A stretch of DNA of 64,000 nt from a virus, in the IMG/VR virus record IMGVR_UViG_3300050119_000091, positions 1 through 64,000 of that record. One strand, given 5' to 3'. The translations under genes and the position numbers were made by a program. The notes below the pieces were generated by a model. It did no database searches and was not told the DNA's origin. It was given only the letters and a program-made list of their open reading frames with translations. Of the stretch, positions 5,284-62,597 are shown in pieces; position 1 is the first letter of the stretch, and each line of letters starts with the position of its first letter.

Positions 5284-5568
5284 TTACGCGAAGGTTATGC
5301 CGCCGTGTCCTGTTTTCTGCTGCGCCGCAAGGCGATACGATTCGGCCTCAATTTCCATCTGGTCCGCGATGGCCTTCGTGTATTCTTCCAGCGTGAATAC
5401 GCCCTTGTCGATCAGGATCTTCACGAGTCCACCCTGATCCGACATAGCCGCGTTGATGCCGACGCGCAAATGCTTCGGCTCCGTTTCCTTGGGGTCGTGA
5501 TTCATTTTGAACGCCACCCCTGACTGCATCGCGTGTGCCGCCGCCGCGTATCGTTCGCTATCGCTCAT
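5284..5568 (-). CDS. Conserved phage protein of unknown function
   Basis: 94 residues. The pattern SDSERYAAAAHAMQSGVA, TEPKHLRVGIN and KGVFTLEEY is typical of a conserved hypothetical family in tailed phages. Four bases separate it from the DUF1643 gene. No function is known to me. Confidence 0.65.
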   Translation of the reverse strand: MSDSERYAAAAHAMQSGVAFKMNHDPKETEPKHLRVGINAAMSDQGGLVKILIDKGVFTLEEYTKAIADQMEIEAESYRLAAQQKTGHGGITFA

Positions 5569-8452: not shown

Positions 8453-9429
8453 ACCGCAACCTCCGTTAATTCCAGTTGCCCCTGCGACCGTGACTCAATC
8501 GCCGCGTCCAGGTTATCTCCTGCGTTTCGGAAATACGATTCTTTCAATTCGCTTCCCACGAATCGCCGCTGCTCCTGAAGCGCCACATAGCCAGAACTTC
8601 CAATCCCGGTGAACGGATCGAAAACCACGTCGCGGGGATTGCTCCACAACTCAACAGCGCGGCGAATCACCGTTAACTGAAGTGGGCAAATATGCTTGGA
8701 ATCTTCCGCGTCCCGAGCGCCCGCGCGTTGCAGTGTGTCCGATGGGTTGATGTCCATCCAGACTGGTGAAGCGTAGTTCTGCCAGACGTAGTGTGAGTAC
8801 TTGTTTTTCTTCTGGTCCGCGTGGCGCTCCGCCTTTGGTTCGTCTTCCGGATTTCCGATCCACTTCGTCAGACCGCGCGGATGCGCAACTGGCTCCGGAT
8901 TCGTCCCGAGCTTCCGCATGATTACGAGTTGATCCGGAATCCCCTGGCGGCACATGGACGAATCTTTCACTATCTGCTTATGCGCCAGCCCAAGCGCGTG
9001 CGTTCGCGTGGCCGCTATCAGCGGGTCTTTCCATATCGTGACGCGGGAGTGGAAAACAAAGCCGTGCTTCTGAAACGCGCGAATGATATCCCCAGGGAAG
9101 TCATACAGCCCAATAACGCCGTCATGCTCGATGCTGGTCGGAAGCTCCATGCAGTGAGTGGCCACCAGACGCCCCGGCATCATGATACGCGCCAACTCCG
9201 AAAGCATGAAGTCTATGCCGTTGAAGAAGTCGTTTTTGGTTCGGATATTGCTCATATCCTCGGTTGCGTCCGTGTATTGATACAACGAGACAAATGGCCA
9301 AGATGAGACGCAGAAATGTATACTATCTGACGGGATGCCGCGAACCACACGCACGCAATCGCCGTGGTATAGCGCATACTCTTCGGTGATCTTCTGATCT
9401 ATTACGGAGTCAGTGGGTACGGTAGTCAA
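8449..9429 (-). CDS. DNA amino-methyltransferase (N4/N6 type) with altered catalytic motif
   Basis: 326 residues from a TTG at 9429 with AAGGGG nine bases upstream. It belongs to the phage methyltransferase group with motif IV before the SAM motif: DPFTGIGSSG at 271-280 is motif I, and HCMELPTS, DGVIGLYDFPGDIIRAF and KDSSMCRQGIPD are group hallmarks. Motif IV, normally (S/D)PP(F/Y), reads SSWPF at 42-46, so a Trp replaces the first Pro. Activity is therefore uncertain. An HNH gene overlaps its start by 20 bases, so expression may depend on that gene. Confidence 0.8.
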   Translation of the reverse strand: MTTVPTDSVIDQKITEEYALYHGDCVRVVRGIPSDSIHFCVSSWPFVSLYQYTDATEDMSNIRTKNDFFNGIDFMLSELARIMMPGRLVATHCMELPTSIEHDGVIGLYDFPGDIIRAFQKHGFVFHSRVTIWKDPLIAATRTHALGLAHKQIVKDSSMCRQGIPDQLVIMRKLGTNPEPVAHPRGLTKWIGNPEDEPKAERHADQKKNKYSHYVWQNYASPVWMDINPSDTLQRAGARDAEDSKHICPLQLTVIRRAVELWSNPRDVVFDPFTGIGSSGYVALQEQRRFVGSELKESYFRNAGDNLDAAIESRSQGQLELTEVAV

Positions 9430-10195
9430 TGTGTTTTTCCCCTTTTGATTGGTTGCACCGACCGCATAGCGGCTGGATGTTGTCTATATTGTTCGATCCT
9501 CCCATTATGAGAGGAATTACGTGGTCCACCGTGAGCCTAATATCCGGCTCTTTCTTGCCGCACCTTAGACACATAAACCCCGCCGCCATCTTCAATGAAT
9601 CCCACTCATGCCTTGTGTACGCTCCGCCATTCGCCAGTTTCCTAGCCCTCCGAGCGTGAACGTAAGACAATGCCTTGTCGCGATTTTCTTTAAACCACCT
9701 CCGCACCATAGCGTTATGCTTCTCTGGATTTGCGGCGTACAACTCCCGGCTCTTTCGGTTGATGGCATCTCTATTTGCTTCGGCGTAGCGTGCCCACGTT
9801 TCCTTAAATCGCCCCGGGAACTTCTCTCGGCTCTCTTTTTGGCGATTAAGAATGGCCTCTTTGTGCGATTCGTAGTGCCTCTTTTGGTGGGCTGAGAATC
9901 GGGATGGGTTTAGTTTTCGAGCCGCCTTGACCCTATCGGACAGTTCTTTCTTGTGGATTTTCTGATACCTACCCCGGATTGCTTTGGTGGCGTCAGGATG
10001 GTCGCGCCTCCACTGCGCCGAGTAGGCCATGTGCTTTTCTTTATTGTTCTCGTAGTAAAGCCTCTTATCCTGATTGGTACACGAACGGCACTGCGGGAAT
10101 TTTCCGTCGTGACGTGACCTGTCGTTATGGAAGTTGTCTAACGGTTGAGGTGTAGAGCATTTTGAGCACGTTTTTAGGGTTGCGCTGTCAACCAT
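9410..10195 (-). CDS. HNH endonuclease (free-standing homing type)
   Basis: 261 residues. The N-terminal zinc ribbon has CSKC (10-13) and CRSC (about 36-39), a long Arg/Lys/Glu helical middle follows, and the C-terminal HNH has CLRC, TVDHVIPL, GGSNNIDNIQPLCGRCN. GGAGG lies seven bases before the ATG. Both ends overlap neighbours: 22 bases with the helicase and 20 with the methyltransferase. This is how mobile HNH genes are often wedged between phage genes. Confidence 0.85.
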   Translation of the reverse strand: MVDSATLKTCSKCSTPQPLDNFHNDRSRHDGKFPQCRSCTNQDKRLYYENNKEKHMAYSAQWRRDHPDATKAIRGRYQKIHKKELSDRVKAARKLNPSRFSAHQKRHYESHKEAILNRQKESREKFPGRFKETWARYAEANRDAINRKSRELYAANPEKHNAMVRRWFKENRDKALSYVHARRARKLANGGAYTRHEWDSLKMAAGFMCLRCGKKEPDIRLTVDHVIPLIMGGSNNIDNIQPLCGRCNQSKGEKHIDYRTH

Positions 10196-12162
10196 ACAGG
10201 CACCTCCATCGGCATTTGATGATCGTAGTTTGCGGATTTATTTGCGCGTTGCGCCAACTGCTCGACCCGCATAGCCAGCGACATTTCCCGCTGCAATTCT
10301 TCGTATGCCGCTTCTTTTTCGCGAATCGCGCTCATGATCGCGCCTTCGGTTTCGGCCATGATGATATGGGCGTTGACCGCGCGGACCTGCCCGAAGCGCC
10401 AGCACCGACGGATAGCTTGGAACATAGACTCGAAGGAATAATTCATTCCCACGAAGATCATATTGCGGCAATGCTGGAAATTTAAGCCCCATCCGGCTAC
10501 AGATGGCTTTGTCAGCAGAATCGGCCTGTCACCACGAAGCCATGCCACGATTCTTCGTTCTTTTTCGTCCGGCGACATGCTCCCGTCAATCGAGATACAG
10601 TCATCGCCGAGTGCCTTACGCATCGGCTCCTGCTCGTAGTTTGTGTTGCACCAAATGATCCAACTTTCCCTCAAGGTAGGCGATTGTTCTGCGCAGCAGG
10701 GCGACGTCGTTTTTGAATTTTCCGATCCCCATATTGCAGTTGGAGCATAGTATGCCTCTGAGCTTTCCCGTTGCGTGGCAATGGTCGATGTGCGGGAAGA
10801 TTCGAGGATTTCCGATGTCTGAAAATCCGCAGATTGCACATTTTCTTCCGTGGGCGTCAAACCATTCACTGAATAACTCGACGGTAAGTCCGTATTGTCT
10901 GAGGTCTTGGTTTTTTGCTTTTGTTGGGTTGTTTTTCGCCCATTCCTTGACTTTGGATTTGTGTGACTCACGATAGTCTGCGTCAGATCGGTATCTATCC
11001 CTTCTTGCAGCGTTAATTCTGGCTCGTTGTTCAGGTGTTCGCTTGCCCCATTTGGCCTCTTTGTTTTTTGCGTAGTACTCCCGCATGTAGATCCTGTTTT
11101 CTTCTGGGGTTCTGGCGTTTTTCTCCCAATTGGCCCGTAGTCGGGCGGCGTATTCTGGGTCGCTGGTAAATTTTCGGCGTCGATTCTCTTCGTATTCTCT
11201 TTTCCAGTTTGACATTCTGACAGTTTAACACTATTGGAGATTGAGTCCAAAATTAGACTAGCGGCCTTCTGTATCCTATCCGTGGCCGTCAGCCGCAATT
11301 CTTTATGCAGCCCGGTGGCGCTCATGTCGGGGCACCTGAACAGCATTCCTTCTGTGTTTACGGAATGATCCACAGCGACGATATGCTCCTGAAGATTGAG
11401 CGGCGGCAGCACATAGGCGCTGTCATTGTAGGGGCCGATGTCGGACGGCTTACTGACGCACACGCAGAACTGAGACAGAAACTCGAAGAACGGTTTCTTG
11501 CCGTGGCCCTTCAGCGACCACTTGGAAGTCTGTCCGCCGTTGTGTTCAAAAAACATAGCCAGCATTTGCGTTCGGCTCATCACATCCAGAAGCTCCGCGT
11601 GCGTCCCAAGCTCCGCGTGTTCGTTTGGAGAAGGAGTGGCACTGGAACACAACTTGAATCGAGTTTTTGAAAGTCGCTCAATGAGTCCCTGAAACAGTTT
11701 CGAGTTGAAGTCCTTGATACACGAGGATTCATCGAGAGAAATACCCGCGAACCGTGACAGGTCCAGATTGTCAAGGCTGTCGTAGTTGGTGACGTTGATG
11801 CCGTATTTCACGTCCGAGTCTTTCCGGCAGAGTGTCACCTGAATTCCAAACTTATCCGCTTCGCGCATGAACTGCTGTGCGACCGCTAGCGGGGCCGCAA
11901 TCAGGCAATCTCCGCCAGTGTGGATACAGACGTGACGACACCACTCAAGTTGTATCGGCCCTTTGCCAAGTCCCGTATTCGCAAACACTGCCGCTTTGCC
12001 GCGCTTGCAGGCCCACTGCACGATATCGGCCTGGAACTCGTGCTTCGGGTCCAGCATCATCGGATTAATGTCCAACCGCTTGATATCGAACCCGCACGGA
12101 TTCGCGAAGATTCTCTTTGTTGCCAGGAACTCTTCGTATGTAGATGTCAAAATATTCCCCAT
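10174..12162 (-). CDS. SNF2/DEAD-like helicase with an insertion that encodes an HNH gene
   Basis: 662 residues from the ATG at 12162. Motif I is ANTGLGKG at 61-68 (the usual GKT/S is GKG) and motif II is LDESSCIK. The C-terminal half has WIIWCNTNYEQ, ISIDGSMSPDEKERRI and FQAIRRCWRFGQ (motif VI), as in phage helicases next to modification genes. Between about residues 305 and 498 lies a Ser/Thr/Asn/Gln-rich, low-complexity stretch with no helicase motif; these bases encode the HNH protein at 10616-11215 in another frame. Whether the helicase works with this insertion is open. The frame upstream of 12162 shadows the MTase gene. Confidence 0.75.
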   Translation of the reverse strand: MGNILTSTYEEFLATKRIFANPCGFDIKRLDINPMMLDPKHEFQADIVQWACKRGKAAVFANTGLGKGPIQLEWCRHVCIHTGGDCLIAAPLAVAQQFMREADKFGIQVTLCRKDSDVKYGINVTNYDSLDNLDLSRFAGISLDESSCIKDFNSKLFQGLIERLSKTRFKLCSSATPSPNEHAELGTHAELLDVMSRTQMLAMFFEHNGGQTSKWSLKGHGKKPFFEFLSQFCVCVSKPSDIGPYNDSAYVLPPLNLQEHIVAVDHSVNTEGMLFRCPDMSATGLHKELRLTATDRIQKAASLILDSISNSVKLSECQTGKENTKRIDAENLPATQNTPPDYGPIGRKTPEPQKKTGSTCGSTTQKTKRPNGASEHLNNEPELTLQEGIDTDLTQTIVSHTNPKSRNGRKTTQQKQKTKTSDNTDLPSSYSVNGLTPTEENVQSADFQTSEILESSRTSTIATQRESSEAYYAPTAIWGSENSKTTSPCCAEQSPTLRESWIIWCNTNYEQEPMRKALGDDCISIDGSMSPDEKERRIVAWLRGDRPILLTKPSVAGWGLNFQHCRNMIFVGMNYSFESMFQAIRRCWRFGQVRAVNAHIIMAETEGAIMSAIREKEAAYEELQREMSLAMRVEQLAQRANKSANYDHQMPMEVPVWLTAQP
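10616..11215 (-). CDS. Endonuclease VII-like HNH nuclease nested in the helicase gene
   Basis: 199 residues. Repeated RxxYRSDADYRESHK-like helices precede a recombination-endonuclease-VII domain: KCAICGFSD, FPHIDHCHATGKLRGILC, CNMGIGKF. It lies wholly inside the helicase gene in a different frame, and its last 17 residues are read from helicase-coding bases. TTGGAC and TAAACT spaced by 17 lie just before the ATG, six bases from it, with no Shine-Dalgarno, so a leaderless start is plausible. Homing nucleases usually split or flank genes; nesting with both frames open is unusual. Confidence 0.8.
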   Translation of the reverse strand: MSNWKREYEENRRRKFTSDPEYAARLRANWEKNARTPEENRIYMREYYAKNKEAKWGKRTPEQRARINAARRDRYRSDADYRESHKSKVKEWAKNNPTKAKNQDLRQYGLTVELFSEWFDAHGRKCAICGFSDIGNPRIFPHIDHCHATGKLRGILCSNCNMGIGKFKNDVALLRRTIAYLEGKLDHLVQHKLRAGADA

Positions 12163-12836
12163 TGATCCGCCATTGCGCTTGCGATTCCAGTGTAAGTACG
12201 GCTCCGCATTTTTGCCCTGTCCGGTCCGGGCGGCATGTGATGTATTCGGTTCCACTGATCGAGTTGAGCGCCCCTCAGTACGCGCGTAGTGCGCCCGGTG
12301 AGGAAATGGGTGGGGTTGTCGCGCTTGCCTTTGGCGCTCATGTGGATACTGCCATCCGCGCGTACCGCCCATTCCGGAACTACAATATCGGACGGCTCTA
12401 ACTTCGGCAGATTAGTGAGCCACAGGCATGTTGTCTTTGTCTCGCCGTGACCGTGATGCCATGGTTGAATAATCTGATCCGGCCGGCGGATTCTGGAACT
12501 TATTATGGAAACAGGGTTCTCTATTGCAATGCGAGGAATCGGAGTGGCCATCAATGCGCGTACGAAATCCAGCGCAGCGCCCTGCTCTCCGCTGGCTACT
12601 TTTTCTTTGAACCACCGCGCGCCAGACACAGACAGATGCGTACATGGCGGATGCGCGATCATCAAATCCCATCGTGAATCTTCACGCAATAATGTGAGTA
12701 CGTCGTAGTGTATGTGACGCCCCGGAACGCTCGACAATGACGGCAACAGGTCGCAACTAAAGGCATCGTGGCCGCGCGCCAGAAATGCATCCCTCACTAC
12801 TCCGGATTCTTCGCAGGCAATAAGTACGCGCATCAT
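12147..12836 (-). CDS. C5-cytosine methyltransferase-like phage protein
   Basis: 229 residues. VLIACEESG with RDAFLARGHDAFSCDLLP is the SAM-binding start, and AHPPCTHLSVSG (61-72) carries the Pro-Cys motif IV with the nucleophilic Cys65. RIAIENP matches motif VI (ENV/ENP), and RSRTYTGIASAMADQWG is the usual phage ending. The protein is shorter than restriction-linked C5 enzymes. It probably methylates phage DNA. Its stop overlaps the helicase start by 16 bases. Confidence 0.75.
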   Translation of the reverse strand: MMRVLIACEESGVVRDAFLARGHDAFSCDLLPSLSSVPGRHIHYDVLTLLREDSRWDLMIAHPPCTHLSVSGARWFKEKVASGEQGAALDFVRALMATPIPRIAIENPVSIISSRIRRPDQIIQPWHHGHGETKTTCLWLTNLPKLEPSDIVVPEWAVRADGSIHMSAKGKRDNPTHFLTGRTTRVLRGAQLDQWNRIHHMPPGPDRAKMRSRTYTGIASAMADQWGIF

Positions 12837-17011: not shown

Positions 17012-17200
17012 TCACTGGCGCGTCCGGGTGGCTTTCGCTGGCACATGGGGGGGGGAATCGGCCCCGGCGCGTTCTTGGGCTATTTGCGCGTCGATCTGAC
17101 ATAAAACCTCAAGCAAGGCCATCGCGGTTTCTTGCTTCCCGACTGATTCAGCCCCGCAAATGTGAACTTTCAGAATTATTTTGCAATCTTCGACGGTCAC
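17012..17200 (-). CDS. Hypothetical small protein
   Basis: 62 residues. The ATG overlaps the helicase stop (17197-17200), which supports translation. VEDCKIILKVHICGAESVGKQETAMALLEVL looks like a small folded domain; the tail is basic and Pro-rich. No family recognised. The run gggggg at 17047-17055 lies near its end. Confidence 0.5.
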   Translation of the reverse strand: MTVEDCKIILKVHICGAESVGKQETAMALLEVLCQIDAQIAQERAGADSPPHVPAKATRTRQ

Positions 17201-18543
17201 TGGATATCCTCCGCCGCTGATTCAAATCTGAGTTGGTTAGCAAGAAACACAAGCGGCACTTTCCCGGTTTGTCCGTCACGCTGCTTGCCGATGATTAAAT
17301 CTGCCACCCCGCGCAAGTCTTCGCGGTCGCGGCAATGCGCGTACATCTCCGGGCGGTGAACGAAAAGAACGAGGTCTGCGTTTTCTTCGATCTTTCCGCA
17401 TTCCTTCAGGTCCGGGAGTCCTGGCTCACGGCGTTCTTCTTCGCACTTGCGGTTGAGTTGGGCCAGCACAACAAACGGAACGTCCATATCGCGGGCGGCT
17501 CTTTGCAGAGCGTCCGCAATTCGGTTGTACTTGATTCGCTCTTCGCGCTCCGGGCCGTCGATCAGGTGGAAGTGATCTATCACCACGAGGTCAATCACGT
17601 TTTTGGATTTCAGGTATCGCAGCGATGCCAGAATCGACGCTGCCGTTTTACCGCGCCTCTGTTTCGATTCGATGTGAACCGGAAGTGTTTCAATGATCGA
17701 CCTGGTTTCTACGAGCTTCGTCCGCTCGTTCAGATTCAGATATCCGAGTTTCATCCGGTGTGCGTCGATGCGACCCTCTTGCGCGACCTCGCGCCGCACA
17801 AGCGACGCCCCACTCATTTCGAGCGACACATAAGCTACGCCGAAATTCTGTTTCGCTGCGTGGGTCGCAATCTGCATTGCGATGGCAGATTTTCCCATCG
17901 ACGGACGGGCGGCGATGATTGTCAGTTCGCCTTTTTGCATCCCGCATGTAATTTGCTGCACACGCGGCCACGGAAACGGAATCCCGGCGTAAGCACCGGC
18001 CGTCGATGGCGAAATAAGGGCCTGCCATCCCCCAGGAAACTCGCGAATGATATCCGTCGCTAACTTCCATTCGGGATCGTCACCGTTCGTGTCGATATCC
18101 TGCGCCGCCGATATCAGCGATGCGATTACGTCCGACGATTCTTCCTGGTCCGATAGAAATCGATTCATCGCCTGCTGGCAGAGTAAAGCGCCGCGCCGTC
18201 GCGCTGATTTTTCTCGGACCATCGAAACATACGAATCGAAATTCGGGAGAAGTGGCATCCCTTTTTCAAGTTCCAACAGGTGACTCAGCCATTCGTAATC
18301 CGAAGGGTCTGTTTCCCGGAGTCTATTGCAAACGGTTACGTGGTCGATTGCCGATTCCGATTCCGCCAAAAACTCCATCGTTTGCCAAATTCTCTTATGT
18401 CGATCCATCGCGAAATCATCGACTGTCAGCTTGTCCCGAACTTCCGAAAAGCAATCCAGTCCCCGCATTAGCAGTTGAGCCAACACCATACGCTCAGAAT
18501 CTACGGCCTGTGGCAATCCTCGTTCGAGTTCTTCTGGGTTCAT
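17197..18543 (-). CDS. dnaB: Replicative DNA helicase, DnaB type
   Basis: 448 residues, the usual DnaB length. The N-terminal domain spans about 10-110. Walker A is ARPSMGKS (212-219), SLEMS follows at 240-244 and Walker B is LVVIDHF (319-325). Later, LAQLNRKCEEER, DLKECGKIEENADLVLF and KQRDGQTGKVPL are DnaB motifs including the arginine finger region. It unwinds DNA at the phage fork. It lies seven bases after the iteron-bearing initiator gene, the classic initiator/helicase pair. Confidence 0.92.
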   Translation of the reverse strand: MNPEELERGLPQAVDSERMVLAQLLMRGLDCFSEVRDKLTVDDFAMDRHKRIWQTMEFLAESESAIDHVTVCNRLRETDPSDYEWLSHLLELEKGMPLLPNFDSYVSMVREKSARRRGALLCQQAMNRFLSDQEESSDVIASLISAAQDIDTNGDDPEWKLATDIIREFPGGWQALISPSTAGAYAGIPFPWPRVQQITCGMQKGELTIIAARPSMGKSAIAMQIATHAAKQNFGVAYVSLEMSGASLVRREVAQEGRIDAHRMKLGYLNLNERTKLVETRSIIETLPVHIESKQRRGKTAASILASLRYLKSKNVIDLVVIDHFHLIDGPEREERIKYNRIADALQRAARDMDVPFVVLAQLNRKCEEERREPGLPDLKECGKIEENADLVLFVHRPEMYAHCRDREDLRGVADLIIGKQRDGQTGKVPLVFLANQLRFESAAEDIQ

Positions 18544-18550
18544 TTTCGAT

Positions 18551-19405
18551 TTAGTCCTCTGGTGGTTGTAGCGGTTGAATTACTTGGTATTTCGATTTTT
18601 GGTCTTCGGTTGGAGTGCGACCGTTTGCTTGTGGTTTGCGTGGGGGGCGTTTCCATGCGCCGTTTTCCAAATACTTCGGGAGCCTGGTAACAAATCTGCA
18701 ATCCTCGCCCGCTTCGATTCTGGCCTGTAGTCTTTTTGTGGCATCGAGTTTCTGTTCAAAGTCGAATTTCTTCCAACTGAACATCCACGCCTGACTCAGG
18801 TCTTCTTCGATCAGGTCACTTCCCCAGAACCGAGTAGCCGCAAGCACGAAGTGCGAGAAGGACTCATCGGATTTGTAGTTTCCGTAAGTGCCGTTCTTAG
18901 ATTCTTCTGTTTTAAGAGATCTACCGTTTACAGAAGATTCTTCAGATATAGAAGAAGAATAAGATTTAGATCGCGCATCGCGCGCGAGAGGTGTGACGCC
19001 TTGTGACGCATCGTGACGCGATGTGACGCCATGTGACGCGGAGTCTCTCTCTCTTTTTTCCTGCATCCTTAAAGTTGAAGACGGTTGTCGTTTATCGAAA
19101 TTTGTCAACAAGTTACCAGAAATCATCTTGCGCCACCTGAAGCCGTCAATGACGGTCTCCACGTCTTTATCCGGCAATCCAGTGGCGACGGAGATGTGGT
19201 CAATTTGGACGCCCTCAATGGAACCGCGCGGACTACTTTGGGAGGCGAAATCCAGCAACCAGACCCAAATTGCAGCCACGTCCGATAGTCGTATTTCAAG
19301 TGACTCAGGGTGACGCGATGTGACGCGATGTGACGCGATGTGACGCAGGACGACTTGATACTTAGGGTCTGTTGCGATGCCATGATAGGCTCTCCACCAG
19401 TCCAT
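18551..19405 (-). CDS. Replication initiator (O/DnaD-like) with built-in origin repeats
   Basis: 284 residues. The N-terminal ~100 residues resemble phage replisome organisers (LEIRLSDVAAIWVWLLDFAS, IEGVQIDHISVATGLPDKDVETVIDGF, a winged-helix pattern). A Ser-rich linker follows (about 125-165), then a DnaD-like region (AWMFSWKKFDFEQKLDATKRLQ). The DNA for residues about 20-36 and about 122-140 is the two 10-bp repeat arrays, so the gene both encodes the initiator and contains its likely binding sites, as lambda O does. DnaB follows directly. The initiator role is inferred from this context. Confidence 0.7.
   Translation of the reverse strand: MDWWRAYHGIATDPKYQVVLRHIASHRVTSRHPESLEIRLSDVAAIWVWLLDFASQSSPRGSIEGVQIDHISVATGLPDKDVETVIDGFRWRKMISGNLLTNFDKRQPSSTLRMQEKRERDSASHGVTSRHDASQGVTPLARDARSKSYSSSISEESSVNGRSLKTEESKNGTYGNYKSDESFSHFVLAATRFWGSDLIEEDLSQAWMFSWKKFDFEQKLDATKRLQARIEAGEDCRFVTRLPKYLENGAWKRPPRKPQANGRTPTEDQKSKYQVIQPLQPPED
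18896..18970. other. AT-rich candidate unwinding region
   Basis: This stretch is clearly AT-richer than its surroundings and directly adjoins the iteron array at 18991-19040. It contains the inverted repeat TCTTCTGT/ACAGAAGA. An AT-rich segment beside iterons is the arrangement of lambda-type origins; unwinding here is inferred. Confidence 0.45.
18991..19040. repeat. Iteron array A: five 10-bp repeats
   Basis: Five in-register units: GTGTGACGCC, TTGTGACGCA, TCGTGACGCG, ATGTGACGCC, ATGTGACGCG. The invariant core is GTGACGC. The 10-bp period places every site on the same helix face and is not a multiple of three, so the coding frame cannot explain it. Probable initiator-binding sites of the origin. 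Confidence 0.75.
19299..19348. repeat. Iteron array B: five 10-bp repeats
   Basis: Units AAGTGACTCA, GGGTGACGCG, ATGTGACGCG, ATGTGACGCG, ATGTGACGCA in 10-bp register, with the same core and orientation as array A about 260 bp away. The outermost unit is degenerate (CTC for CGC). Two arrays could allow looping by the initiator. Confidence 0.75.
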
Positions 19406-19570
19406 TCAGTGACCGCCTTGGGATTCAAATTTTCGGATTGCTTCGATTATGTCGGAAACCAAAACCCGCTCAGGCTCAGTGAGTTGGAAAATATTAAACG
19501 AGCCGCTGATTATAATTTTCTGGTCGCAGGAAAGCGCGACTTCGCGATGATGTTCTAAATAGTCTTCCAC
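19406..19570 (-). CDS. Hypothetical small protein
   Basis: 54 residues from a GTG at 19570 with GAGG five bases upstream (in-frame GTG at 19666 is the longer alternative, 86 residues). The body IIISGSFNIFQLTEPERVLVSDIIEAIRKFE is protein-like. The stop is followed at once by the initiator ATG. It is the first gene of the leftward operon. Confidence 0.5.
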   Translation of the reverse strand: MEDYLEHHREVALSCDQKIIISGSFNIFQLTEPERVLVSDIIEAIRKFESQGGH

Positions 19571-19800
19571 TTCCACCTCGGATGGGGAGCCAGGCCGGTC
19601 CGGGTCCGAGGTTCCGAATCCGGCCCGTGGAAAGGCTTCCGCGCGTCGGGGGATCAATCCCGACACAGTTATTTTACCACAAGCAATCGACTTGCCAATG
19701 TATCACGTTTCTGGTTTACCCAATAAAACCGCTTTGTTTCCCACATAGGGTATCGACGTGCTTGATTGATTCTGGCTCAAATAGCCAAGGAGAAAACATC
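19571..19800. promoter_or_regulatory. Divergent control region between left and right transcription units
   Basis: On the minus strand TTGGCA, 16 bases, TAAAAT reads leftward to about 19670, seven bases before the GTG at 19666. The rest carries no gene I can support. A plus-strand promoter should lie before 19801, but no clear -35/-10 pair is visible. Confidence 0.4.
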
Positions 19801-26908: not shown

Positions 26909-29328
26909 GTCCATCGGTCGGCTACCCTACTACCGAATACGAAGAATCTGAACCCGCGCCACCTACGGTAGTTCCTGATTATGGCGACGGCTACAGGAAT
27001 CTACCTGAACAACTAAAGCGAGCGCTCATGGATTGCTTCAAAAAGGCACAATCCTGTGAGAAATTCATACGCCGTCAGGAAGTTCTTCAGGACGCAAAGA
27101 TCCGTTTCTACGACATGGGAATCCAGCATGTCTACCTGAACGGAACTTACGCATGGACGGCTGGCGTTGCGGGCGGATCATACGCCACCGGGCCTAACTC
27201 CAAAAACTACTTCAGCGAATACTTGGACGATTACCCAATCCTGCCGGCGTTCGGCCAGATCATTCGCGCGAAACTATCAGAGCACGATCCGTCCGTAGAT
27301 TTCCAGCCGGATGACCAGAGCGATACGAACGATCTTGAGGCCGCGAAGGCCGCTGAAGGGATGCGGCACGATTACGACCGTAACAACGACGTTAAATTAC
27401 TCCAGCAGCAGATCGTCTACCACTGGGAAATGGGCGGCAGATGCGTCGTATGGACCCGTAGTGAAGACGCGCCGCCCCGGTTCGGAGATGTGGCAGGCAA
27501 CCCGCCGCGACACGTTGTATCGACCGCATACGGCAGCATTGAGGCCAAGGTTCCGATCTTCGCCAACACAACGCGCCAGTGCGGGTATTGCATTCTGTAC
27601 GATGACCCGGATATCCAGGAAGCGAAAGAGCAATACGACTGGATAGCCCACAAGCTCGACGCAGGCCAACAGTGCGCGGATGAAAACGCATACGAGCGCA
27701 TAGCGCGTCTTGGAATCATTCAGAATTCAGCGGGACGCAGTTATGGCTGGAACATCGGCGATGCGGTAACCCATCTGATCGGACGCGGCAATGGGTTCCT
27801 GAGAACGAATCGCTTTCAGGGTTACGATGACGCATTTGAAGAAGCCACGGAGTCAGACGTAAATCCAGACGGAACTGTTCTGACAGTCGGGGAAAAACTG
27901 AAGCAACTGTACCCCGATGGCGCTCACATGGTCGTAGTTGGCCAGGAGTACGCTTGCTCCTACAACAGGTGCATGGACGATTGCATTTCAATCTCCCATC
28001 CCTACATCGGGAAAGGCCAGCAGAGAATGCCGATCCTTTACCCGATGATCGTAGTTCAGGACCGCTTCAATCAGGGAATGAATCTGATTGCGGAATCGCA
28101 GGATCACTTGGTTCCGTCAACGTGGATCGGGTGCGCGGCAACGGAATTCGCGGCGATCACAAAGCAACGCGCAAAGCCCGGAGCATTCCGAAACCTGAAA
28201 GACATGCCCAGTGGCGTCCGAATTCAGGACGTACTGTACCGCGAGCCGGATTACCAGATTCCAGCGAGCGCGATGCAGTTTCTACAGTTTCTTGACGGTG
28301 CCCTCCCTGAGTTTATGTTGGCGTGCCCTCCTGCTATGTGGGGGCAAAGTATGCAAGATAATAAAACGGCCGCTGGCTTGCAACTCGCCGCCGCTCAGGC
28401 AATGGGCATCATGGGCGCATTGTGGGATATGCAGGTTCAACAGTTCACTGAAATATATCGCCAGAACTGCATAGCCATTATTTCGGACGAAAAATACGCG
28501 GATCAGGTTATCACGACAAACGCGCGCGGGTTGCGTGAGGTTGTCGAAAAAGGTTCACTGACAAAAGGCAAGTTCCGATGCTTTGCCGATAAAGATTCCG
28601 GATTCCCTGAATCAACGAACTCAAAAAGGCAATCCATGGAGCGACTGGTTGGGCTGCTGGCTCCGACCCCGCTCGGTACGCAAATCATGGGAGCGCCGGA
28701 TAATGCGGCGGAGTTGGTCCGGCTCAGCGGCGTCAATCTGGTTATCCCGGAAGCGGAAGCGCGAAACAAGCAACTTCGCGAAATCGAAAGTCTCTTGGCG
28801 CAAGAGCCTGTCATCGGTGACCCGATGATTCTGGCGATGTTGCGATCCGGCCAGAAAGTTCCTGACATCATCATGGCTATTCAGCAAGCCAGAAACACGA
28901 TGATGCAGGCGTATCAGGCGGGGTTACAGCAACAGCAAATCCAGCACGCGGGGCAAACTATCGCATCGCAGGCAATGGGAACCGCCGCGCCGCCCGCACC
29001 AGTTCCTCCGCCACCGCCTGACCCATCGACCATTGCGAAATCATCCGTTCCGATTTGGCCCTCAGACTTTCATCTGTACGAAGCCACGAAATGCCAAGAC
29101 TACCTAACGTCCGACCAGTGCAACACGGAACTGATAATCGGCAAGCCGTCACCCGATCCGGCGATGAATGGCGAGATGGTTCCGAATAACGCAGGCGTGT
29201 TGAATGTATTTTTGCACTGGAGCGAGCACGTCGCCGCGATCCCGGCAGCGCCGATGCCTGCGCCGTCTGGTCCGCTGCCAGCCGTGGGCAGTCCGCCCAA
29301 GGTAGCGCCTCAGCCAGCCGGAAGTTAA
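26905..29328 (+). CDS. Portal protein
   Basis: 807 residues from a TTG at 26905, whose codon overlaps the previous stop, with AGGA eight bases upstream. It has the length and pattern of the portal of podo-like phages: KAQSCEKFIRRQEV, DYPILPAFGQIIRAKLSEHDPSVDF, YHWEMGGRCVVWT, TRQCGYCILYDDPD, and a helical Gln/Ala/Met-rich C-terminal crown (about 660-720). It forms the DNA-entry ring at one capsid vertex. Position ahead of scaffold and capsid genes agrees. The Pro-rich tail is variable. Confidence 0.75.
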   Translation: MSPSVGYPTTEYEESEPAPPTVVPDYGDGYRNLPEQLKRALMDCFKKAQSCEKFIRRQEVLQDAKIRFYDMGIQHVYLNGTYAWTAGVAGGSYATGPNSKNYFSEYLDDYPILPAFGQIIRAKLSEHDPSVDFQPDDQSDTNDLEAAKAAEGMRHDYDRNNDVKLLQQQIVYHWEMGGRCVVWTRSEDAPPRFGDVAGNPPRHVVSTAYGSIEAKVPIFANTTRQCGYCILYDDPDIQEAKEQYDWIAHKLDAGQQCADENAYERIARLGIIQNSAGRSYGWNIGDAVTHLIGRGNGFLRTNRFQGYDDAFEEATESDVNPDGTVLTVGEKLKQLYPDGAHMVVVGQEYACSYNRCMDDCISISHPYIGKGQQRMPILYPMIVVQDRFNQGMNLIAESQDHLVPSTWIGCAATEFAAITKQRAKPGAFRNLKDMPSGVRIQDVLYREPDYQIPASAMQFLQFLDGALPEFMLACPPAMWGQSMQDNKTAAGLQLAAAQAMGIMGALWDMQVQQFTEIYRQNCIAIISDEKYADQVITTNARGLREVVEKGSLTKGKFRCFADKDSGFPESTNSKRQSMERLVGLLAPTPLGTQIMGAPDNAAELVRLSGVNLVIPEAEARNKQLREIESLLAQEPVIGDPMILAMLRSGQKVPDIIMAIQQARNTMMQAYQAGLQQQQIQHAGQTIASQAMGTAAPPAPVPPPPPDPSTIAKSSVPIWPSDFHLYEATKCQDYLTSDQCNTELIIGKPSPDPAMNGEMVPNNAGVLNVFLHWSEHVAAIPAAPMPAPSGPLPAVGSPPKVAPQPAGS

Positions 29329-58753: not shown

Positions 58754-59575
58754 TTACTGCCCGCACTCGATTTCATCGGAAATCTGACCCAGTACTGTAC
58801 GCAGGGCGTTTTCTACGCTCATGGCCAGAATATGTTTAGGCCAGTCGGATGCTTGGTAGCGATCCAGAATAGCGCAAAGATCCGCTGTCTTTAGGGGCTT
58901 CCGCTTCACCGGCGCGGTCGCAAGGGTATTCCCACTACCTGACTGCTGGAATGGCGTGGCGATGCGTTTAATGGTCGCTGGGGTCAGTTTCTCGCCGCTT
59001 TTCAGGGCCTCGCGCTGGAGGTCCTTCGAGAGTTTCGCCAACGCCACCGCCGCATTCGGTTTAATTGACTGATTCACAAGGGCCCTGGCCCCTTCGTCGC
59101 ACAACTCGATCAGGGCCAGCCGCTCTTTAACCCACTTCTCGTCTTCGTGGTACACGTTGGCAGCGATGTCTTCCAAGGACATCCCGTAGCGTTCCAGTTT
59201 GGCGATATTAAATGCATCGTCAATGGCGGTCGTTTGGTTTCGGTCCCTGTTTTCCCGTACCGTCGCCATGAACGCCTGGTGCTCAGAGCCCTTGAAGTAC
59301 ACGCAGCGGAGCTTGAACGGGACTGGCGTCAACTTCCGTTTGTTGATCTCCAGGGCGGCCCGCCATCGGGAATGGCCCGCGTATAGGATCGGAGTTCCGC
59401 CGTCGTTCCCGATTAGGACCGGCTGAAGCTGGCCCGATGCGACCATCGAATCCACCAGCCAGCCGATTTCCGGTAACTCGTGGCGTCCGTTCAGTTCCGC
59501 CTTGATCTTAATGTTTTCGGGAGCAAACATATACTCCGAAGAACGGCTGTGTTCTACTTTGAATTCTACGGCCAC
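58754..59575 (-). CDS. ParB/Srx-family protein
   Basis: 273 residues. ENIKIKAELNGRHELPEIGWLVDSMVASGQLQPVLIGN, GHSRWRAALEI and ENRDRNQTTAIDDAFNI are ParB-type N-domain motifs, followed by an HTH-like region (GMSLEDIAANVYHEDEKWVKERL). Phage ParB-like proteins can cut or bind DNA, or regulate. No ParA is seen nearby. Confidence 0.75.
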   Translation of the reverse strand: MAVEFKVEHSRSSEYMFAPENIKIKAELNGRHELPEIGWLVDSMVASGQLQPVLIGNDGGTPILYAGHSRWRAALEINKRKLTPVPFKLRCVYFKGSEHQAFMATVRENRDRNQTTAIDDAFNIAKLERYGMSLEDIAANVYHEDEKWVKERLALIELCDEGARALVNQSIKPNAAVALAKLSKDLQREALKSGEKLTPATIKRIATPFQQSGSGNTLATAPVKRKPLKTADLCAILDRYQASDWPKHILAMSVENALRTVLGQISDEIECGQ

Positions 59576-61339: not shown

Positions 61340-62257
61340 TCAGGCAACCTCTACGAATTCGCCGTTGTTGTTAAGGCGGTATTTTACGTTCGGCTTGAGT
61401 TGCCCGTCGCCGTCTTCGTCCTGGACTGAAGCGAAGCGTGTTTTGTATCGCTTGCCGTTCCATTGCAGGATTACCAGGTTACCGCCGTAGCCAGCCGTCG
61501 CAGTCCCGCTATCGCCAGCCGTCGCAGTCCCGCGATGGCCAGCCGTCGCAGTCCCGCTATCGCCAGCCGTCGCAGTCCCGCCGTAGCCAGCCGTCGCAGT
61601 CCCGCCGTAGCCAGCCGTCGCAGTCCCGCGAACGCCAGCCGTCGCAGTCCCGCTATCGCCAGCCGTCGCAGTCCCGCGATGGCCAGCCGTCGCAGTCCCG
61701 CGAACGCCAGCCGTCGCAGTCCCGCTATCGCCAGCCGTCGCAGTCCCGCTATCGCCAGCCGTCGCAGTCCCGCGAACGCCAGCCGTCGCAGTCCCGCTAT
61801 CGCCAGCCGTCGCAGTCCCGCGAACGCCACCCGTCGCAGTCCCGCTATCGCCAGCCGTCGCAGTCCCGCGAACGCCAGCCGTCGCAGTCCCGCTATCGCC
61901 AGCCGTCGCAGTCCCGCTGATTACGCGCTTGCCGAATCCGCCATTATCGACCACGTATTTCCCAGCGGCCATACGATCACCACAAAACACCACGTCGCCA
62001 GATGGAAATTTGACCTTGCCGCTAAGGTCAATCAGCATGGCCTCATCGACCGAAACGACCAGCCATTTCGCGCCTTCGGAGAAATCCCCAAGCGATGCGT
62101 CTCCCTCGCCCCAAAGCCATCCATGCAGGCCACTGCCACACGCCTGCGTGGGCTTCCAGTCGGAGCATGAGATCGGCCCGGATTCAGGCCATTTGAACTG
62201 GCCGTGATAACTGGTCATGTCGGCGGCGCATGACCGCAACACCAATACACTAGCCAT
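61340..62257 (-). CDS. DUF7666-like protein with 18 eight-residue repeats
   Basis: 305 residues from the ATG at 62257. The N-terminal domain (SYHGQFKWPESGP, WKPTQACGSGLHGWLWG, WLVVSVDEA) matches a phage family. Then 18 units of GTATAGxx follow (two variable residues: DS, VR, HR, YG), ending with GNLVILQWNGKRYKTRF. The array resembles a beta-solenoid. Similar repeats are known in phage proteins; function unknown. Confidence 0.75.
   Translation of the reverse strand: MASVLVLRSCAADMTSYHGQFKWPESGPISCSDWKPTQACGSGLHGWLWGEGDASLGDFSEGAKWLVVSVDEAMLIDLSGKVKFPSGDVVFCGDRMAAGKYVVDNGGFGKRVISGTATAGDSGTATAGVRGTATAGDSGTATGGVRGTATAGDSGTATAGVRGTATAGDSGTATAGDSGTATAGVRGTATAGHRGTATAGDSGTATAGVRGTATAGYGGTATAGYGGTATAGDSGTATAGHRGTATAGDSGTATAGYGGNLVILQWNGKRYKTRFASVQDEDGDGQLKPNVKYRLNNNGEFVEVA
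61484..61915 (-). repeat. 24-bp tandem repeat, 18 units
   Basis: 432 bp = 18 x 24 bp, no interruption. Order of the variable pair along the protein: DS VR DS VR DS VR DS DS VR HR DS VR YG YG DS HR DS YG. Unit 4 has GTATGG. The near-identity of units means copy number could change readily by slippage or recombination. Confidence 0.9.
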
Positions 62258-62597
62258 TCGCGTGTACTCCGATCTCTGCCGTCTTCGGCGTGGCCTTTTC
62301 TCCGAGCACGCACTCAACATCGATCACTTGGCCGTGCTGGATTTCGCCCCAGTGGTTCAGTATGTAATCGTGGGCAATCTGAAAGGTGCGCGTGCCCTTG
62401 CCGAGCGCGGCCCATTCGTATGGATCATTCGTGGCCTTCTGATCGTACAGACTCATCAGGATTACGCTTGACCCATCGGCAGGGAATCCGCAATGGCGCA
62501 TGAATCGGGCTTCGGTCGCGTCACCAGGCGTCATGAGTATGCCCATAGCTGCGATGGTGGTTCCTTTGTCTCTAATCTCTAGGTACTTAGTGGTCAT
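62250..62597 (-). CDS. Conserved phage protein of unknown function
   Basis: 115 residues from the ATG at 62597, GGAG eight bases upstream. KYLEIRDKGTTIAAMGI, DPYEWAALGKGTRTFQIAHDYILNHWGEI and VIDVECVLGEKATPKTAE are the pattern of a widespread phage family. Stop overlaps the next ATG. Confidence 0.65.
   Translation of the reverse strand: MTTKYLEIRDKGTTIAAMGILMTPGDATEARFMRHCGFPADGSSVILMSLYDQKATNDPYEWAALGKGTRTFQIAHDYILNHWGEIQHGQVIDVECVLGEKATPKTAEIGVHANG

Follow-up and report, generated by a model that had tools for sequence, protein, structure and literature searches.

Helically phased GTGACGC repeats inside a phage initiator gene mark a very probable origin of DNA replication

The window, a stretch of 64,000 nucleotides that makes up nearly the whole of a 66,779-bp phage record, carries a replication initiator gene on its minus strand (18551-19405). 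The 284-aa product has a predicted winged-helix N-domain, a basic helix, a low-confidence linker and a helical C-part. A DnaB-like replicative helicase gene follows immediately downstream on the same strand (17197-18543; Pfam E=1.3e-63). Helicase genes are also found close to the initiator in several annotated relatives, and here the two genes adjoin. An 86-aa open reading frame lies directly upstream of the initiator (19406-19666, minus strand) and matches no family at E<=0.001. Both are preceded by a promoter-like site, TTGGCA-16-TAAAAT (19671-19698, minus strand), in a set of promoter-like sites whose number is no better than chance.

Other minus-strand features of the window lie at a distance from this gene cluster. 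A ParB-like partition protein (58757-59575; PHROG 1033, E=8.8e-18) could provide plasmid-like upkeep of the prophage. A 326-aa protein encoded at 61343-62320 contains about 18 copies of an 8-residue repeat (DNA 61490-61918), in which a GTATAG-like segment is joined to two residues that switch among DS, VR, YG and HR. The underlying 24-bp unit is 91% matching, and the protein matches PHROG 18079 (function unknown) at E=1.3e-75. Within 9410-12372, HNH-like or endonuclease-VII-like frames can be read from the translation at 9410-10195 and 10616-11215. The second of these overlaps a helicase frame (10174-12372), lies between the helicase's matched ends, and is possibly an inserted homing endonuclease gene.

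The initiator protein of the window matched no Pfam or NCBIfam model. A tblastn search relates its first ~125 residues to a cyanophage 'putative replication protein O' (E=7e-9). Weaker relationships extend to genes for replication O, primosomal and replisome-organiser proteins in phages of Escherichia, Pseudomonas and Aeromonas. The family PHROG 3729 ('replication initiation protein') is matched below 0.001 by 30 of the 31 aligned family members, the exception being the window protein, which on its own reaches E=0.013. Beyond PHROG 3729, family members match differing replication families (O-like, DnaD-like loader and primosomal), a pattern that would fit modular initiators joined at a linker. 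In the AlphaFold2 model, a confident N-domain (residues about 10-124) closes in the basic helix (110-124) and gives way to the low-confidence linker (under 50 at 141-179), after which the helical C-part begins. Because structure comparison of the N-domain returns a series of winged-helix domains tied at Z 5.4-7.5, including CAP/FNR, the modelled fold is likely a winged helix, with kinship to no single family implied. The tied matches include the plasmid initiators 4pql, 5kbj, 4pt7 and 4pta (Z 5.4-6.0), which, judging from their titles, are of the RepA_N type. A Foldseek search with the window model gave no match at E<=0.001, and a profile search gave none at E<=1 against PDB sequences.

Two arrays of short direct repeats lie within the coding sequence. 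Array 1, the linker array (18993-19039, plus strand, antisense to the gene), contains five perfect GTGACGC units starting at 18993, 19003, 19013, 19023 and 19033, in exact 10-bp steps. It spans codons about 123-138, at the end of the basic helix, where the confidence of the model falls (block means of 72, then 52). Array 2, the N-domain array (19300-19346, plus strand; codons about 20-36), has perfect units at 19310, 19320, 19330 and 19340, again in 10-bp steps. An earlier note on this DNA had counted five GTGACGC units in each array; the count is right for array 1, whereas the fifth unit of array 2 is a variant, GTGACTC, in register at 19300. The 10-bp register that the note reported, the position of both arrays inside the initiator gene (18551-19405, minus strand) and their separation of 260 bp (19040-19299) are all accurate. 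The three-base spacer is variable in array 1 and reads GAT between the perfect units of array 2. Array 2 overlaps a 13-residue insertion relative to most homologs, which falls within codons 21-38 (19292-19343, minus strand), with ambiguous exact ends, and is placed where helix 1 ends and passes into the next loop. Across the 64 kb, GTGACGC occurs 24 times, compared with 12.8 in shuffles, and nine of the 24 copies lie in the two arrays. The whole 66,779-bp record contains no further array of three units.

The arrays are not a by-product of the encoded protein. When synonymous codons of the window gene were permuted 20,000 times, with protein and codon usage kept, the longest chain of units reached three in the first 320 nt (N region) and four in the next 320 nt (linker region), against four and five observed, and no shuffle contained more than five cores in the gene, against nine observed. 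Neither array was ever reproduced, in keeping with the note's claim that protein repeats do not explain them. With 10-bp spacing, the three-unit GTGACGC pattern was found in 25 viral contigs, and with 11-bp spacing in 17, whereas a control with the letters of the core reversed (10-bp spacing) was found in none. Among genome contigs, however, three-unit GTGACGC arrays also occur in unrelated, ordinary bacterial genes, which means that an origin cannot be recognised from the core by itself. The 93 genome-contig matches were not used as origins, several of them lying in ordinary enzyme genes or in one array-rich Ignavibacteria genome.

This last genome, the bin UBA2333, carries GTGACGC 10-bp arrays on many contigs (L051, L073, L086, L087, L098, L110, L115, L117, L121 and L127), several of them outside long open reading frames, in the manner of a dispersed repeat. 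The longest unbroken GTGACGC array encountered, ten perfect units in 10-bp register, lies outside any long open reading frame at 5379-5475 of a Sphingopyxis MAG contig (L126).

The arrays were followed across homologous genes, which were gathered by two profile searches of viral contigs (80 loci kept in each) and supplemented with named phages. An alignment was used as the query because the window protein alone gave four pattern matches in viral contigs, none of which was confirmed. Fifteen of the 160 loci, in which the gene start was not found by motif, were dropped before counts. The array test comprised 70 distinct genes: the window gene, seven from named phages, 60 from the second profile search and two representatives of a near-identical E. 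coli set (L152-L231), the only members of that set to enter. Arrays with 10/11-bp steps were sought de novo in each gene and tested against 100 of its own synonymous shuffles. A linker array is present at p<=0.05 in 62 of the 70 genes, including five purine-only arrays that were set aside, and absent at that threshold in the other eight. Its position is kept (about nt 330-470) while the encoded protein segment is poorly conserved. The note had proposed comparing conservation of the repeats with that of the protein across relatives, and the outcome supports an origin at the DNA level. The plan is conserved while its core changes. Genes of the PHROG 3729 type in Escherichia, Pseudomonas and Aeromonas phages carry in-gene arrays, and an ACGC chain scan of the 70 genes found an antisense linker array only in the window. 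Among 64 distinct E. coli genes, synonymous changes are fewer in the arrays, a difference that is not significant (p=0.18).

The family is common in E. coli genomes. Of 5426 complete genomes of this species, 2503 contain a homolog of the Escherichia phage Tritos gene, used as query, and in 1630 of them at least 80% of the query is covered, which makes bench tests in ordinary laboratory E. coli possible. The E. coli examples examined carry the two-array plan, and most of the matches listed are annotated either as 'hypothetical protein' or as 'phage replisome organizer'.

A second array is a recurrent feature of these genes. Both the N-domain and the linker array pass p<=0.05 in 17 genes, a set in which several members are closely related (three from E. 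coli; Marin with phita81A), so that independent cases are fewer. By scan, the cores of the two arrays agree in 14 of the 17; among the exceptions, L281 agrees by eye (GTCAC listing), L292 is mixed and L255 disagrees. The N-domain array recurs in Escherichia, Pseudomonas and Aeromonas phages at about nt 128-166, compared with nt 60-106 in the window. Other such arrays start at nt 96, 191 and 200, the one at nt 200 (L276) being inverted. A further homolog, L304, has units of its own GTA type in mixed orientation at the point of the window's insertion, which the scan left unscored. Recurrence at differing places is hard to explain except as a DNA site carried by the gene. It also bears on the idea that the arrays arose by replication slippage or as protein-level repeats, and have no function as DNA. 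Tandem short repeats can indeed grow by slippage, and three-unit arrays do occur in ordinary genes. Nevertheless, the failure of synonymous shuffles to reproduce the arrays, the empty reversed-core control and the constancy of array position in 62 of 70 homologs despite divergence of the protein segment, together with the repeated second arrays, leave this idea a negligible probability.

A site of DNA opening is suggested by the sequence next to array 1. The note had pointed to an AT-rich stretch beside one array, and the least stable 50 bp of the whole gene do lie there, at 18919-18968 (28% GC), starting 24 bp beyond array 1 in the direction of the gene; this segment is a candidate DNA unwinding element. 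Stability was compared in 54 genes, 16 of the 70 being left out because they had no linker array, had a purine-only array or were cut off. In 51 of the 54, the 50 bp of lowest stability start at -30 to +60 from the end of the array, compared with 6.3 expected under uniform placement. In 53 genes, the first 60 nt past the array are less stable than in synonymous shuffles, and in 46 the difference reaches p<=0.05. For the window, the AT-richness of these fixed 60 nt does not significantly exceed codon needs (p=0.21); its best 50-mer within 60 nt of the array is less stable than in all 5000 synonymous shuffles. On the gene strand, the purine fraction of the tract is at least 0.60 in 50 of the 54 genes (median 0.70), and the window's value, 0.42, is the lowest of the family and only mildly pyrimidine-rich.

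These tracts help to distinguish an origin from a set of operators. The arrays could in principle be sites at which the initiator or a repressor regulates transcription of the replication operon, with replication starting elsewhere. Clustered in-gene sites can block transcription, a promoter-like site lies upstream, and two arrays would suit looping repression. However, an operator needs no unwinding-prone stretch, such as lies past the linker array in 51 of 54 genes, nor AT-richness beyond codon needs, as seen in 46, and the arrays sit in mid-gene, away from promoters. Regulation of this kind is accordingly a very improbable account of the arrays.

The association with instability is clear only in the window's own family, as tests of GTGACGC arrays in other viral sequences show. 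In other viral open reading frames, the downstream side of the array is less stable in 19 of 24 cases, and the least stable point lies just past the array in only 11 of 24; for arrays outside long open reading frames, the corresponding counts are 8 of 14 and 4 of 14. Likewise, the three-unit arrays in unrelated bacterial genes come without the flanking instability pattern (27/48). Of 66 listed genome-contig open reading frames, 52 were aligned and scanned. A search for DnaB near other GTGACGC arrays, made with a single-seed profile, found it only in L015 and was too weak to count either way.

The repeat unit is mostly G-N-N-ACGC. In an alignment of 242 units from 52 genes, anchored on ACG (which is therefore imposed) and leaving out ten array-bearing genes with fewer than three anchored units, the unit reads A-x-G-N-N-ACG-C. 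Neither the G at -3 (75%) nor the C after ACG (79%) was imposed. The triplet before ACG varies between phages and mostly agrees within one gene. The commonest triplet per gene is GTC in 14 genes, CGA in nine, GTA in eight, GCA and GAA in six each, GTG and GGA in three each, CAA in two and GCC in one. On its own strand, the window's commonest unit is ATGTGACGC, which differs by one base from ATGTCACGC, the unit in Pseudomonas phage Marin. A tree of 47 N-domains requires at least 22 changes of the triplet, compared with a shuffled mean of 31.2 (0 of 200 shuffles as low), although this tree gives the window a very long branch and draws in part on a few columns that are iteron-coded. The triplet is thus labile yet clustered.

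The distribution of triplets bears on which protein reads the units. They might be recognised by a host factor or by another phage protein, in an origin that is otherwise the same. This is unlikely, although it would fit the presence of the same GTGACGC core in other initiator families, as a shared binder predicts. Closely related phages differ in the triplet, whereas the arrays of a single gene mostly share it, and the units follow the N-domain family; the nearest precedents also bind their own in-gene sites (PMC5043065; PMC5703833). Recognition by the product of the gene itself is the preferred reading. Eight other phage initiators (L007, L009, L011, L012, L017, L020, L026 and L029) have GTGACGC arrays immediately behind a basic segment resembling R-x-R-x-Y-R-x-R, in some cases with inverted copies (GCGTCACATGTGACGC), which suggests that the unit is shared beyond the window's initiator family.

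The genetic code restricts which units can be used in a coding sequence. Because GTGACGC holds TGA, an array of three units spaced by 10 or 11 bp puts a TGA in each of the three frames and can sit in an open reading frame only in antisense. No antisense-reading open reading frame was found to span any of the arrays. Consistent orientation over the 25 plus 17 viral contigs, at first taken for conservation, was dropped as evidence for this reason. The note's observation that the two arrays share an orientation is correct, both reading GTGACGC on the plus strand, but carries no information, as antisense placement is forced by TGA. Units of the GTA and GTG types, before ACG, contain TAA and TGA. 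In sense arrays of these types, slots in the forbidden frame kept ACG and changed the triplet in seven of seven cases, against 2 of 32 slots elsewhere; in classes free of stops, the majority triplet is retained at that frame in 44 of 49. The change of triplet away from a stop is forced, and the informative part is the retention of the ACG unit. In L250 and L287, an 11-bp step skips the forbidden frame, although steps of this length are also seen in stop-free classes. With nine perfect units of the GTG type, the window escapes the stop problem by carrying its arrays in antisense. As a result, its units point away from the unwinding stretch, whereas those of the family point towards it. If the window origin works, iterons of this class need not point in a particular direction with respect to the melting site; otherwise, the window could have its melting site elsewhere.

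Taken together, these observations indicate that the phage very probably starts DNA replication at repeats inside its own initiator gene. The origin candidate of the earlier note is strengthened by the arrays of relatives, by their unstable stretches (51/54 genes, and beyond codon needs in 46/54) and by the second arrays. Cumulative GC skew was rejected as evidence, its minimum at 27,308 and long plateau being confounded by divergent gene direction near 19.7 kb. From the precedents of lambda and RepA_N (PMC5043065; PMC5703833; PMC7466680), we infer the following course of initiation. The winged-helix N-domain of the gene's own product would bind GTGACGC units, one per turn, along one face of the DNA. 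The complex on array 1 would then bend or stress the DNA and melt the adjacent AT-rich segment at 18919-18968, and the C-part of the initiator would deliver the DnaB helicase of the neighbouring gene. Array 2 is probably an accessory site for the same protein, acting in looping, in stabilising or in limiting initiation; it may loop to array 1, adding protein or restricting firing. As in lambda, the origin would be traversed by transcription of the operon, for which the promoter-like site at 19698-19671 is a possible start. For this reading as a whole, namely an in-gene origin at which the gene's product binds the units, melts 18919-18968 and brings DnaB through its C-domain, with array 2 as accessory, we estimate a probability of about 0.85.

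A wider proposal concerns the G-N-N-ACGC class as such and is more tentative, being possible though somewhat less likely than not. It would be a very widespread class with one unit per helical turn, in which ACGC serves as a constant anchor and the preceding triplet, read by the initiator encoded in the same DNA, sets an evolvable specificity. The genetic code would police the triplets, stops being evaded by a changed unit, an added base or an antisense array. Second arrays of the same type would have been gained repeatedly at differing places in the coding sequence of the DNA-binding domain and may act as a control or handcuffing site. Related phages, and also prophages of common gut bacteria, show the same in-gene layout with a changed spelling of the repeat. 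If the origin reading is right, origin positions could be read from sequence alone for many phages and prophages, and natural initiator-iteron pairs would be ready for the study of how DNA-binding specificity changes. It would also offer a clean case of a protein code and an origin code constraining each other.

Several known origins share parts of this plan. In the lambda origin in gene O and in the origins of Stx phages, the middle of the initiator gene holds iterons together with an AT-rich, strand-asymmetric tract, and the helicase is recruited through the initiator complex (PMC5043065; PMC7466680). Similarly, the window has an array inside the initiator gene at the inter-domain linker, with an AT-rich tract adjacent, and to this extent the lambda-type plan proposed in the note applies. 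The units themselves differ. Each lambda iteron is a near-perfect inverted repeat of 19 bp to which O binds as a dimer, whereas the units of the window are direct, 10 bp long and built on a non-palindromic core of 7 bp; the window also has a second array in the N-domain part, and its arrays run antisense. In the RepA_N plasmid pSK41, the initiator has a winged-helix N-domain, DnaD-like parts, sites central in the rep gene and a dispensable linker encoded by the origin (PMC5703833). The window initiator has comparable central in-gene sites and may resemble it in its predicted winged-helix N-domain. However, a Pfam scan of the window initiator found no RepA_N domain PF06970 (0 families at E<=0.1), and the RepA_N origin has four Rep boxes in one site rather than two arrays of short units. 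Iteron plasmids place direct repeats in helical phase beside an AT-rich tract (PMC5043065), as the window does; its unit is shorter, its array lies inside the initiator gene and its initiator is different. For Francisella phage KIRK, a putative origin has been described in which iterons lie within a replication gene (PMC7924643). The portions of the searched literature that were available contained no description of the G-N-N-ACGC unit or the two-array plan, and those of a paper on Stx-phage replication regions (PMC8044961) contained nothing on iterons. Also close are the PHROG 3729 initiators ('replication protein O', 'phage replisome organizer'), which appear to have the same N-domain and, like the window gene, carry an in-gene 10-bp linker array followed by an unstable stretch. 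Read on the sense strand, their arrays give GTCACGC, whereas those of the window give GTGACGC on the antisense strand. By analogy, the window origin would work like those of lambda and RepA_N, yet it falls outside the definition of each: that of lambda because unit length and symmetry differ, and that of RepA_N because PF06970 is absent. It is therefore classed as a variant of the in-gene iteron origin, set apart from the lambda and RepA_N types.
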